From NCBI GenBank assembly GCA_014762505.1, contig JABURS010000016.1, forward strand, positions 1-37,990: a stretch of DNA of 37,990 bases. The letters are read 5' to 3'. This stretch comes from Chromatiales bacterium. GTDB taxonomy: Bacteria > Pseudomonadota > Gammaproteobacteria > SpSt-1174. The first letter of the stretch is position 1. Every line of letters begins with the position of its first letter. Under the pieces are notes generated by a model that saw only the letters and a program-made list of their open reading frames with translations, searched no databases and had not been told where the DNA came from. A program made the translations under genes and the position numbers. Below, piece by piece: positions 940 through 37,923 of the stretch.

Positions 940-1010
940 GTAGGAGCCGAGCCCTCTCGGCGATAACCTTCGGTGCCAGAGCCCTATCGGCCAGGGGGCT
1001 GGCCTCCTAC
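940..1010. repeat. Inverted pair of family-2 REP elements
   Basis: The pair opens with GTAGGAG followed by the hairpin GCCGAG-ccct-CTCGGC and closes with the inverted partner ending in CTCCTAC, whose stem is of the GGCCAG/CTGGCC type. It is the same element family as at 36275-36441 and 37502-37923, but with the two halves in the opposite order. Confidence 0.8.
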
Positions 1011-5957: not shown

Positions 5958-6413
5958 GTAGGAGTGGTGCGAGCCGCGATGCCGATATCCGGCGAAGCTG
6001 CCGTGCCCGATCGCGCCTTGCAGCGCTCCTACGGAGCCGCGGTTTTTATTGTAGGAGCGGTGCAAGCCGCGATGCCGATGTCGGGCGAAGCTGCCAGACC
6101 TTATCGCGCCTGGCGGACGCTCCTACGGAGCCGCGGTTTTTGTTGTAGGAGCGGTGCGAGCCGCGATGCCGGTGTCCGGCGAAGCTGCCGTGCCCGATCG
6201 CGCCTTGCAGCGCTCCTTCGGAGCCGCGGTTTTTGTTGTAGGAGCGGTGCGAGCCGCGATGCCGCTGTCGGGCGAAGCTGGCATGCCTTATCGCGCCTGG
6301 CGGACGCTCCTACGGAGCCGCGGTTTTTGTTGTAGGAGCGGTGCAAGCCGCGATGCCGATGTCGGGCGAAGCTGCCAGCCCTCATCGCGCCTGGCGGACG
6401 CTCCTACGGGTGC
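5958..6413. repeat. Tandem array of five ~93-bp REP pairs (family 1)
   Basis: Units start at 5958, 6051, 6145, 6238 and 6332, so the period alternates 93/94. Each unit opens with GTAGGAGCGGTGC(A/G)AGCCGC and closes with the inverted partner ending GCGCTCCTAC or GACGCTCCTAC. The hairpins are GCGG/CCGC and GCGC/GCGC around TGCAAG. Units 1 and 3 share one right half (CCTTGCAGCGC), while units 2, 4 and 5 share another (CCTGGCGGACG), suggesting growth by duplicating a two-unit block. It lies directly upstream of the RAYT gene. Confidence 0.93.
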
Positions 6414-6485
6414 CAGGGTTGTATCGCCGGTGATCGTCGGGTCTAATGCCCACGTCAGCTTCATCTCCAGGGAATGGAGGGCTTC

Positions 6486-6953
6486 ATGGCAAGACAAGGA
6501 CCGCATGGCCGGGCGTTACGCCATGGACGTTATTCTGAGCCCGGTCGCATCTACCACGTCATTTCCACCACCCGGCAACGCTTGCCGTTGCTCTCCTCAT
6601 TCGAATCCGGGCGTGCCGTGGTTGCGGCGATGAGGCGTCTGGATGAATCCGCCGCCACCGATACCCTGGCCTTCGTCGTGATGCCGGATCATGTCCATTG
6701 GCTCTTCGAGCTTGGCAGGGCCATGCCGTTGTCGCGTGTGGTGGGGAGCTTCAAGAGCCATAGCGCCCGTGAGCTGAACAGGCATCATGCACATCCTTGC
6801 CGAACGGTCTGGCAACGGGGCTTCTTCGATCACGCCATTCGCGCGGAGGAAGATATTCGCGCGGTGGCCCGTTACATCGTGGCCAATCCGCTCAGGGCGG
6901 GGCTGGTCACGTCGCTGCGGGATTATCCCCTGTGGGATGCGAAATGGGTTTAG
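6486..6953 (+). CDS. REP-associated tyrosine transposase (RAYT, Y1/IS200-like)
   Basis: A 155-residue protein of the Y1 transposase superfamily. It has the RAYT opening GRYSEPGRIYHVISTTRQRL, the metal-binding HUH motif MPDHVHWLF in mid-protein, and the helix with the catalytic tyrosine ARYIVANPLRAGLV near the C-terminus. RAYTs nick single-stranded REP hairpins and are thought to spread them; they are usually single-copy and domesticated. The ATG at 6486 is chosen because GGAGG lies 5 bases upstream of it; an in-frame ATG at 6474 lacks such a site. REP arrays flank it on both sides (5958-6413 and 6964-7119), as expected of a RAYT with its own substrates. Lengths and motifs appear complete, so it is probably active. 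Confidence 0.92.
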   Translation: MARQGPHGRALRHGRYSEPGRIYHVISTTRQRLPLLSSFESGRAVVAAMRRLDESAATDTLAFVVMPDHVHWLFELGRAMPLSRVVGSFKSHSARELNRHHAHPCRTVWQRGFFDHAIRAEEDIRAVARYIVANPLRAGLVTSLRDYPLWDAKWV

Positions 6954-6963
6954 CTGCCGCCCC

Positions 6964-7119
6964 TTATCGCGCCTTGCAGCGCTCCTACGTAGCCGCGGTT
7001 TTTGTAGGAGCGGTGCAAGCCGCGATGGCGCTGTTGCGAGAATCTGCCGCCCCCTTATCGCGCCTTGCAGCGCTCCTACGTAGCCGCGGTTTTATTGTAG
7101 GAGCGGTGCCAGACGCGAT
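6964..7119. repeat. REP pairs downstream of the RAYT gene (family 1)
   Basis: Two copies of the right half (CGCGCCTTGCAGCGCTCCTACG) alternate with two left halves (GTAGGAGCGGTGC). The spacer AGCCGCGG followed by a T-run is shared with the upstream array. The last left half is degenerate (CCAGACGCG). The array ends just before the stop codon of the convergent gene at 7137. Confidence 0.9.
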
Positions 7120-7136: not shown

Positions 7137-7613
7137 CTAGTCGTGATCCCAGTACCAGGTGTCGCCGATGCGGATCACGTCGATGGCGGCTTCGCGGCGG
7201 CCGTTGCGGTCGATGGTCTTCTTGTAGATGGCCTTGTCCGGTCCCGGGGGCAGGGCCTCGTACTGGCGGTGTACGCGCCGCATGATCGTCTCGCTGTATT
7301 CCAGCACCACCACGACCTCGGCCTTCTGCCACTGACCGCCTGCTTCCGTGTAGCGCAGTCCGCGGTGTTCCCTGATGACGAAGCCCTTCCAGAAGTCGCG
7401 CCAGCGGCTGGAGCGGATGGTGGGTTCGTGTCGGGGGGTGGCGAGCATCACCATGGTGTCCACGTCGTCGGCCTGATTGGCGGTGAGGAAGGTCTCGACG
7501 AGGCGCTGCGGGTCGCTGCCGGCGACGGCCGGGGACGCCCAGGGCAGAAACGCGGCGACGAGCAGGGTGAGCAGCTGGCGTCGGGACATCGGCATGGGGT
7601 TCGGTGTGGGCAT
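7137..7613 (-). CDS. Secreted protein of unknown function (possible NTF2-like fold)
   Basis: A 158-residue protein. The N-terminus (SRRQLLTLLVAAFLPWASPAVAG) is a signal peptide with twin arginines followed by a hydrophobic stretch, so Tat or Sec export is possible. The mature part begins with a helix carrying a LVETFLTANQADDVDTMV pattern, has a basic central strand region, and ends in a VIRIGDTWYWDHD strand. That pattern resembles NTF2-like lumazine/SnoaL-type proteins, but this is a weak inference. Several Met codons are close together at the start; 7613 is the longest that does not intrude into the upstream permease gene. It follows the MacB-like permease by 52 bases and may be the last gene of that operon. 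Confidence 0.65.
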   Translation of the reverse strand: MPTPNPMPMSRRQLLTLLVAAFLPWASPAVAGSDPQRLVETFLTANQADDVDTMVMLATPRHEPTIRSSRWRDFWKGFVIREHRGLRYTEAGGQWQKAEVVVVLEYSETIMRRVHRQYEALPPGPDKAIYKKTIDRNGRREAAIDVIRIGDTWYWDHD

Positions 7614-7665
7614 GGGGCAAGCATAACGGGACCAGCGGCCTGGTGCGACCATGCCGGCGGGCGGT

Positions 7666-13997: not shown

Positions 13998-14054
13998 GTG
14001 GCGCGCCTGCCGAAGTCCGGGTTCGAGGGCAGGCGCTGCGCTTGTGCCCTCTGG

Positions 14055-14248
14055 GTGCAAGCTGCGATGCCCGGTGCCGGGTGAAGGTACCGCCCCGATC
14101 GCGCCTTGCAGCGCTCCTACGAGAGCAGTGGTTTTCTGTAGGAGCTGCGCAAGCTGCGATGCCCATACCGGAGACGGAGCTGCCAACCCTGATCGCGCCT
14201 TGCGGGCGCTCCTACGGGTGCTGGCCTTTCTCTGTGCCCTCTGTGGGG
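14055..14248. repeat. REP pairs (family 1) and a CACAGAGG-family element
   Basis: GTGCAAGCTGCGATGCC (14055-), an inverted half ending GCGCTCCTAC (14120), a second left half GTAGGAGCTGCGCAAGCTGCGAT (14138-14160) and an inverted half ending at 14216 make two pairs. The left stem here is AGCT/AGCT, a third stem variant. CTCTGTGCCCTCTGTGGGG follows at 14229. This fills the gap between two convergent genes, with no gene in it. Confidence 0.8.
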
Positions 14249-19882: not shown

Positions 19883-19905
19883 GTAGGAGCGCCGCAAGGC
19901 GCGAT
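19883..19905. repeat. Solo REP hairpin in the ssrS-fau gap
   Basis: GTAGGAGCGCCGCAAGGCGCGAT: stem GCGCC/GGCGC around GCAA, between the shared flanks GTAGGAG and GAT. It is one of the few single, unpaired copies. Confidence 0.85.
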
Positions 19906-33719: not shown

Positions 33720-33791
33720 GTAGGAGCGCCGCAAGGCGCGATCAGGCTTTGACCTGCGCTGGAACGCCATCGCGCCCTGCAGCGCTCCTAC
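33720..33791. repeat. Inverted REP pair (family 1) between tpx and gcvPB
   Basis: GTAGGAGCGCCGCAAGGCGCGAT (left, stem GCGCC/GGCGC, loop GCAA) and an inverted partner ending GCGCTCCTAC. It lies inside an operon and may stabilise or end the upstream message, changing the amount of gcvPB relative to tpx. Confidence 0.9.
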
Positions 33792-36278: not shown

Positions 36279-36344
36279 GAGGCCAGCACCCTGGCCGACA
36301 AGGTACCGGCACGGAGGCCATCGCCGAGAGGGCTCGGCTCCTAC
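36275..36344. repeat. Family-2 REP pair overlapping a stop codon
   Basis: The left half GTAGGAG-GGCCAG-cacc-CTGGCC begins within the last codons of the upstream gene, supplying its TAG. The right half is the inverted GCCGAG/CTCGGC hairpin ending CTCCTAC. Confidence 0.88.
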
Positions 36345-36367: not shown

Positions 36368-36441
36368 GTAGGAGGCCAGCCCCCTGGCCGATAGGGTTGC
36401 ACCCGGCATGGTCATCATCGCCGAGAGGGCTCGGCTCCTAC
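36368..36441. repeat. Family-2 REP pair
   Basis: GTAGGAG, stem GGCCAG/CTGGCC around CCCC, then GAT. The partner is GCCGAG/CTCGGC around AGGG, ending CTCCTAC. With the previous pair it fills most of the gap 36279-36534. Confidence 0.9.
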
Positions 36442-36534: not shown

Positions 36535-37359
36535 ATGACGTCCTTGCACTTTCGCAGCATCTTCATCTCCGACGTGCACCTGGGTACGCGCGACTGCCGC
36601 GCGGACTTCCTGGTCGATTTTCTCGAGTCCACCGAGAGCGAGTTTCTCTACCTGGTCGGCGACATCGTCGACCTGTGGGCGATGCGCCGCTCGGTGCACT
36701 GGCCGCCCTCACATACGCGGGTGTTGCAGCTGATCTTCGAGAAGGCGGCGAAGGGCTGTCGGGTGGTCTATATCCCGGGCAATCACGATGAACTGATGCG
36801 CGACTTCGTCGGCACCGAGATCAACGGCGTGAAGATCCTGCGTGATGCGGAACACCGGACGAACGACGGGCGCCGGTTCTTCGTCAGCCATGGCGACGAG
36901 TTCGATACCTTTGTGCGTCACAACGGCCTGCTGCGCGTGGTGGGGGACGGGATCTATCCCTTCCTGCTCATGCTCAACCGTGGCTTCAACGGCCTGCGCC
37001 GCCGCTTCGGCCACCCCTACTGGTCGCTCGCCAGCTTCATCAAGTCGAAGGTGGGGAACGCGCGCCGTTACATGGACAAGTACGAGACCGCCGTGGCCCG
37101 GTCGGCCGCCAGCCAGGACTACGACGGTCACATCTGCGGCCACATCCACAAGGCGGGCATCGTCTCGCGCGACGGCATCCTCTACTGCAACGACGGCGAC
37201 TGGGTGGAGCACTGCACCGCCCTGGTCGAGGACGCGGAGGGCCGCCTCAACCTCCTGCACTGGGCGGACCGCAAGCAGATCGAGCAGGTGAGCGAGGGGA
37301 TGGCGGTCGAGGCGGCGCTGATTCCGTTGACGGCGTTAGGGTTCAGGCATCAGGCGTAA
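36535..37359 (+). CDS. LpxH-like UDP-2,3-diacylglucosamine diphosphatase family phosphoesterase
   Basis: A 274-residue calcineurin-like metallophosphoesterase. Metal motifs: ISDVHLGT near residue 12, VGDIVDLWAMR near residue 40, PGNHDE near 82, HGDEFD near 120 and CGHIHKAG near 200. The length and the HGDEFD segment fit LpxH/LpxH2, which hydrolyses UDP-2,3-diacyl-GlcN to lipid X in lipid A synthesis. Neighbours do not confirm the pathway. The second part (GDWVEHCTALVEDAEGRL) is also characteristic of this group. Good start: GGAGGGGCCGCC lies just upstream. Confidence 0.88.
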   Translation: MTSLHFRSIFISDVHLGTRDCRADFLVDFLESTESEFLYLVGDIVDLWAMRRSVHWPPSHTRVLQLIFEKAAKGCRVVYIPGNHDELMRDFVGTEINGVKILRDAEHRTNDGRRFFVSHGDEFDTFVRHNGLLRVVGDGIYPFLLMLNRGFNGLRRRFGHPYWSLASFIKSKVGNARRYMDKYETAVARSAASQDYDGHICGHIHKAGIVSRDGILYCNDGDWVEHCTALVEDAEGRLNLLHWADRKQIEQVSEGMAVEAALIPLTALGFRHQA

Positions 37360-37368
37360 AGGCCAATT

Positions 37369-37434
37369 GCCACAGAGGACACAGAGCTGAGTCGGGCTGT
37401 TTTCTTCCTCTGTGATCTCTGTGCCCTCTGTGGC
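37369..37434. repeat. CACAGAGG inverted pair
   Basis: GCCACAGAGGACACAGAG (37369-37386) and CTCTGTGCCCTCTGTGGC (37417-37434) pair with one mismatch, 10 bases after the LpxH-like stop codon. It may serve as a terminator. Confidence 0.8.
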
Positions 37435-37923
37435 TAAAACAGCTTCAAGGCGCATAGCGCCACCCATGCCTCACACTTGACGCCTCCCGCCCCACCCTCC
37501 GGTAGGAGGCCATCCCTCTGGCCGATGGGGTTGTGCAGCGGGCATGGTCGTTATCGCCGAGAGGGCTCGGCTCCTACGTGTATGGCTCTTCCCCTCTGTG
37601 CCCTCTGTGGCTAAAACAGCTTCAAGGCGCGTAGCGCCACCCATGCCTCACACCTGACGCCTTCCGCCCCATCCTCCGGTAGGAGGCCAGCCCTCTGGCC
37701 GATGGGGTTGTGCAGCGGGCATGGTCGTTATCGCCGAGGGGGCTCGGCTACGTGTATGGCTCTTCCCCTCTGTGCCCTCTGTGGCTAAAACAGCTTCAAG
37801 GCGCGTAGCGCCACCCATGCCTCACACTAGACGCCTCCCGCTCCACCCTCCGGTAGGAGGCCAGCCCTCTGGCCGATGGGGTTGTGCAGCGGGCAAGGTC
37901 GTTATCGCCGAGAGGGCTCGGCT
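37417..37923. repeat. ~175-bp tandem repeat, two full units and one truncated
   Basis: Units begin at 37417, 37594 and 37768. Each contains CTCTGTGCCCTCTGTGGC, a hairpin GGCGC-GTA-GCGCC (in units 2 and 3), and a family-2 REP pair. The third unit's right hairpin stops at the start of the terminal repeat at 37921. Differences between units are few, so duplication is recent. No gene is seen in 37360-37990. Confidence 0.9.

Follow-up and report, generated by a model that had tools for sequence, protein, structure and literature searches.

In a 37,990-nucleotide stretch of DNA from a Chromatiales bacterium (hereafter the window), we find a locus that is very probably a REPtron: one RAYT gene accompanied by its cognate GTAG-1 REPs, arranged as tandem BIME-like REPINs on both sides of the gene. 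Positions 5958–6407, all upstream of the gene, comprise five tandem REPINs (inverted REP pairs) with a period of 93/94 bp, in which units start at 5958, 6051, 6145, 6238, and 6332 (spacing 93/94/93/94). Each has GTAGGAGCGGTGCRAGCCGCGAT as its forward REP, followed by ~29 bp of linker and then an inverted REP, which is of either type A (ATCGCGCCTTGCAGCGCTCCTAC) or type B (ATCGCGCCTGGCGGACGCTCCTAC). The locus is composed of the following features:

5958–6050 (+), REPIN unit 1, type A: forward REP 5958–5980, inverted REP 6010–6032
6051–6144 (+), REPIN unit 2, type B: forward REP 6051–6073, inverted REP 6103–6126
6145–6237 (+), REPIN unit 3, type A: forward REP 6145–6167, inverted REP ~6197–6219 with a mutated head (CTCCTTC)
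6238–6331 (+), REPIN unit 4, type B: forward REP 6238–6260, inverted REP 6290–6313
6332–6407 (+), REPIN unit 5, type B: forward REP 6332–6354, inverted REP 6384–6407; nearest to unit 2 (95%)
6025–6324 (+), stem-loops resembling terminators (GCTCCTACGGAGC + CGCGGTTTTT), four in all, where units meet; identified by pattern match only
6474–6953 (+), RAYT gene, 159 amino acids from the first ATG; second ATG at 6486
6966–6988 (−), REP half directly past the RAYT stop codon
7004–7026 (+), REP half
7057–7079 (−), REP half
7097–7119 (+), REP half, last in the cluster, with one stem mismatch (GCGGT/GACGC)

Of the right halves of the upstream units, those at 6010 and 6197 are of type A, the latter with one change, and those at 6103, 6290, and 6384 are of type B, which gives the order A-B-A-B-B. 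Units of the same type are 90–95% identical (1 versus 3, 95%; 2 versus 4, 94%; 2 versus 5, 95%; 4 versus 5, 90%), compared with 84–86% for A-B pairs, and unit 5 resembles unit 2 more than it does the adjoining unit 4. Within this array, a 187-bp period outscores a 94-bp period in Tandem Repeats Finder (92% versus 88% matches), and in a second array of the genome (C29, L148) the double period is likewise favored (186 versus 93 bp). These results give good support to the duplication of a two-unit block. The first-pass annotation of this DNA had described five tandem ~93-bp inverted pairs, an A-B-A-B-B order suggestive of such a duplication, further REP halves downstream of the gene, and a RAYT with an intact HUH motif and catalytic tyrosine; the unit identities and the double period, the four halves within 6966–7119, and the protein comparisons below bear it out on each count. 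A decayed sixth forward REP between unit 5 and the gene was considered and rejected, as its alignment was no better than that of shuffled sequence (321 of 2000 shuffles were as good). In the textbook RAYT arrangement, the flanking REPs are inverted (REP-rayt-iREP). At this locus, both REP orientations are present on either side of the gene, and the innermost pair (6384 and 6966) shares the same orientation. Past the last REP unit, and with its stop codon abutting it, lies a 161-amino-acid reading frame (7137–7622, − strand) that matches no Pfam family and has no relative at the compared loci outside its own genome.

As judged from sequence profiles, the family membership of the RAYT is settled. 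The reading frame matches NCBIfam NF047646 (REP-associated tyrosine transposase) at 143.5 bits (E 4e-42; cut-off 80), and the IS200 model scores it below its own cut-off (46.5 versus 55). The only solved relative we found is E. coli TnpA-REP (PDB 4ER8, E 9e-10). The HUH motif is formed by H73 and H75, and the catalytic Tyr134 aligns with Y115 of the E. coli enzyme, the residue altered in its catalytic mutant Y115F (PMC8266576). Among 91 relatives, H73 is conserved in 91, and H75 and Y134 in 90 each. The second ATG (6486) has a GGAGG-like sequence upstream and is likely the start. We found no other close family member in the genome, in line with RAYTs, which characteristically occur once per genome and would not themselves be mobile. 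The only other Y1 gene found there (L163 6607–7116; G000:C37 ~127994–128503), which we considered as a rival source of the REPs and rejected, is 26% identical to the RAYT and has unrelated flanks that carry CATAGGGCGGCCC(A/G)TGGCCGCC repeats and no GTAG; in its association with CATAGGGCGGCCC repeats it resembles the TIRYT/TIRtron type (PMC3733652).

The REPs of this locus belong to an abundant family. The pattern GTAGGAG-N(8–14)-CGCGAT has 98 exact matches in the 2.77-Mb genome, compared with 2 for the reversed pattern, and ~90 REP hairpins are dispersed through the genome, in keeping with the scattered elements that the first-pass annotation had supposed. One of the 98 (C35:175557) is a chance match inside a conserved gene that is also found in a congener. 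Although 81% of the sequence examined was called coding, 88 of the 98 matches fall outside called genes and 10 inside; these fractions cover the stretches around REP matches rather than the whole genome, and the intergenic figure is approximate, as genes were called with a simple codon-usage caller that placed at least one gene on the wrong strand. Several contigs terminate ~120 bp from a REP, which suggests that arrays were probably broken or collapsed in assembly and that the copy numbers are minimal. GTAG-1 REPs are defined by GTAG, two unpaired nucleotides, a palindrome, and a 3-bp tail (PMC3733652), and the REPs of this genome have all four; between GTAGGA and GAT they fold into a hairpin (5-bp stem, 4-nt loop), the type-B half less well. 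Stem changes among copies and species are compensated (GCGG/CCGC, GCGC/GCGC, and GCGA/TCGC). Array units can be aligned over their full length, across both REPs and the linker, with ~27 other stretches of the genome, which indicates that the dispersed unit is the REPIN. Elsewhere in the window, REPs of this family occur as follows:

1087–1109 (−), dispersed REP
14054–14217 (+), two-REPIN cluster: degenerate forward REP at ~14055, exact inverted REP 14098–14120, near-match forward REP at 14138, exact inverted REP 14192–14215
19883–19905 (+), dispersed REP; the same site in the congener is occupied by an inverted pair of different stem
33720–33791 (+), dispersed REPIN: forward REP at 33720, inverted REP at 33769

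The same flanks had been reported earlier at 14055, 19883, and 33720. The latter two are exact, whereas 14055 is degenerate and lacks GTAGGAG; the copies at 1087 (−) and 33769 (−) had been overlooked.

Other repeats are also present in this genome. A second REP class, GTAGGAGCCGAG-CCCT-CTCGGCGA, has a 6-bp stem and 27 exact genomic copies versus 0 in the control; its copies in the window are:

940–963 (+), second-class REP
36321–36344 (−), second-class REP
36418–36441 (−), second-class REP
37554–37577 (−), second-class REP

We found no RAYT flanked by this class, which is perhaps an orphan REP family left by a lost RAYT. A dispersed repeat of the CCACAGAGGACACAGAG type has ~50 genomic matches and forms part of some REP arrays (window 37332–37434; L167 1957–2712; L140).

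The upstream array contains more terminator-like stem-loops than expected (four, versus 1.3 ± 1.2 in shuffles), and these are oriented toward the RAYT gene. Damping of RAYT expression by hairpins has been suggested (PMC3733652), and by analogy those upstream of this gene may hold its expression down. The four plus-strand sites could also be read as attenuators or terminators of the upstream FAD-oxidase gene, with the repeats unrelated to the RAYT. This is hardly credible in view of the GTAG heads, the compensated stems, and the genome-wide dispersal, and a like arrangement surrounds the RAYT of the congener, which lies elsewhere in that genome.

Comparison with this congener (G001; an assembly 75% complete, in 260 contigs) bears on the age of the elements. 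Its RAYT is the sister of the window RAYT in our tree (support 100/92), yet the two are only 59% identical, while a neighboring host protein is 91% identical between the genomes. The congener gene occupies a different locus, within its own REP array, in which stems are GCGAC/GTCGC or GCGAT/ATCGC; the stem flanking it occurs in none of the 98 elements of the present genome. Approximately 70 congener elements do share stem types with this genome, and the only RAYT detected in the 75% complete assembly has a different flanking stem. The congener thus has many such REPs with no detected RAYT of the same type, which weakens the case for their upkeep by this RAYT lineage. About 15 of 33 congener REP clusters occupy the same positions as clusters here; an automatic count gave 17, and we discounted a chance match within a gene and an array divided between two contigs. 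The two halves of the divided array, and L201:8725, are placed by flank alignments. Many dispersed copies therefore predate the species split.

These shared positions limit what can be attributed to the window RAYT. The first-pass annotation had proposed this copy as the source of the scattered elements. The identity of the RAYT and of the REPs, and their cognate pairing, are supported; the claim of source overreaches because ~15 sites are older than the species. Recent seeding of all dispersed elements by this gene copy is accordingly quite unlikely: it would suit the lack of a second close RAYT in the genome and the fact that the type-A half of the array, GTAGGAGCGCTGCAAGGCGCGAT, is the commonest REP (24 of 98), but it is contradicted at the shared sites, and common dispersed variants, such as the 14 copies of GTAGGAGCGCCGCAAGGCGCGAT, are absent from the array.

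The shared sites also record change. At one (L152/L189), a single REPIN here corresponds to approximately five tandem copies in the congener; at another (L155/L196), there is a single REPIN, possibly static. Local expansion or contraction of arrays is thus seen at shared sites and not at the RAYT locus. At old shared sites, elements of one stem type seem to have given way in situ to those of the other (window 19883 and L201, where the same site bears a different stem; L160/L188). The RAYT locus itself is a synteny breakpoint (window 7139–7658; L183, L185, and L219). The congener assembly contains neither the 3′ end of the gene upstream of the RAYT nor the orthologous junction. MacB, the downstream neighbor of the RAYT locus, has a different partner in G001 and G002, where the next gene is dehydrogenase-like. 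In the present genome that dehydrogenase-like gene lies on C35:129033, adjoining the segment that flanks the RAYT in G001. The break reflects either repeat-driven rearrangement or misassembly. Both RAYT loci, here and in the congener, appear to lie at chromosome rearrangement breakpoints. An improbable extension of these observations is that the sister RAYTs, having parted in locus and stem, have arrays that overwrite each other's sites and help rearrange the chromosome.

A possible, though clearly less probable, alternative to the REPtron reading is that the RAYT is domesticated and serves its host, with REPs kept mainly by vertical inheritance and by host functions (transcription ends, gyrase binding) and with arrays altered by unequal recombination. 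The positional sharing of clusters between genomes whose RAYTs are so diverged and differently located would be expected from such a history, as would the terminator-like unit junctions, but REP presence tracks RAYT presence. In 56 genomes, mostly one per family, we scored a close RAYT (E ≤ 1e-20) against at least 5 REPs: 7 genomes had both, 3 the RAYT only, 2 the REPs only, and 44 neither (Fisher p 1.7e-5, which is indicative, as the cut-offs were fixed after the tables were seen). In each of the 3 RAYT-only genomes, at least one RAYT is accompanied by GTAG hairpins whose stems differ. A same-family relative from outside the genus (one genome) has neither RAYT nor REP; a relative lacking the gene is thus also without the elements, which are abundant elsewhere in the present genome, so that neither outcome named by the first-pass annotation as counting against it is seen. 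In a set of 91 RAYT loci, drawn mostly from Gammaproteobacteria and Betaproteobacteria, the density of GTAG hairpins is 2.7/kb up to 700 bp from the gene versus 0.28/kb beyond, and 59 loci have at least 2 such hairpins within 700 bp, which indicates that a RAYT amid its own REPs is common.

For the REPtron, we envisage the following mechanism. The RAYT would most likely bind single-stranded REP hairpins, recognized as GTAG, GA, a 5-bp stem, a 4-nt loop, and a GAT tail; it most likely then nicks beside them through Tyr134 and rejoins the ends. Such nicking and rejoining would allow REPINs to multiply near the RAYT gene and, rarely, to seed other intergenic sites. Binding and nicking by the window protein are proposed from its homologues in E. 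coli, Stenotrophomonas, and Marinomonas. Homologous RAYTs bind and nick single-stranded REPs, with GTAG important to cleavage, and E. coli TnpA-REP is active on the REP strand and inactive on the iREP (PMC8266576). We infer that array growth is driven by the RAYT; ordinary unequal recombination could also produce it.

The locus conforms to the REPtron/GTAG-1 family (PMC3733652, PMC2817692) in its GTAG, two unpaired bases, short stem, and 3-bp tail, in a RAYT with HUH and tyrosine motifs placed amid its own REPs, and in the dispersal of intergenic copies. It differs in that its stem and loop sequences are lineage-specific, and in its number of REP halves, with ten before the gene, of which one has a mutated head, and four after it. 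E. coli TnpA-REP (yafM) with BIME-2 (PMC2817692; PDB 4ER8) offers a homologous enzyme with tandem REP pairs on both sides, but E. coli has longer, bulged REPs, whereas those described here are short with nearly perfect stems; one third of RAYTs are directly associated with BIMEs (PMC2817692). In Pseudomonas fluorescens SBW25, whole REPINs with their flanks likewise stand in tandem next to each RAYT, and tandem clusters give a 184-bp next-neighbor peak; the 98 exact copies here are far below the 1,053 GI–GIII sequences of that strain (PMC3116915). The different stem flanking the congener RAYT (GCGAC/GTCGC) recalls the "orthoswitch" change of REP class, which was reported mainly at syntenic RAYT genes, whereas the RAYTs compared here lie at different loci; class switching with RAYT relocation has also been published (PMC3686654). 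A RAYT within a REP array, tandem REPIN clusters, and the switching of stems have thus all been described before, and this locus illustrates them clearly without being out of the ordinary. Its value lies in a clean RAYT/REPIN pair together with a congener that offers shared sites, differing array lengths, and a changed stem, so that the slow co-evolution of the transposase and its repeats can be followed site by site, leaving the accepted picture of these systems unchanged.
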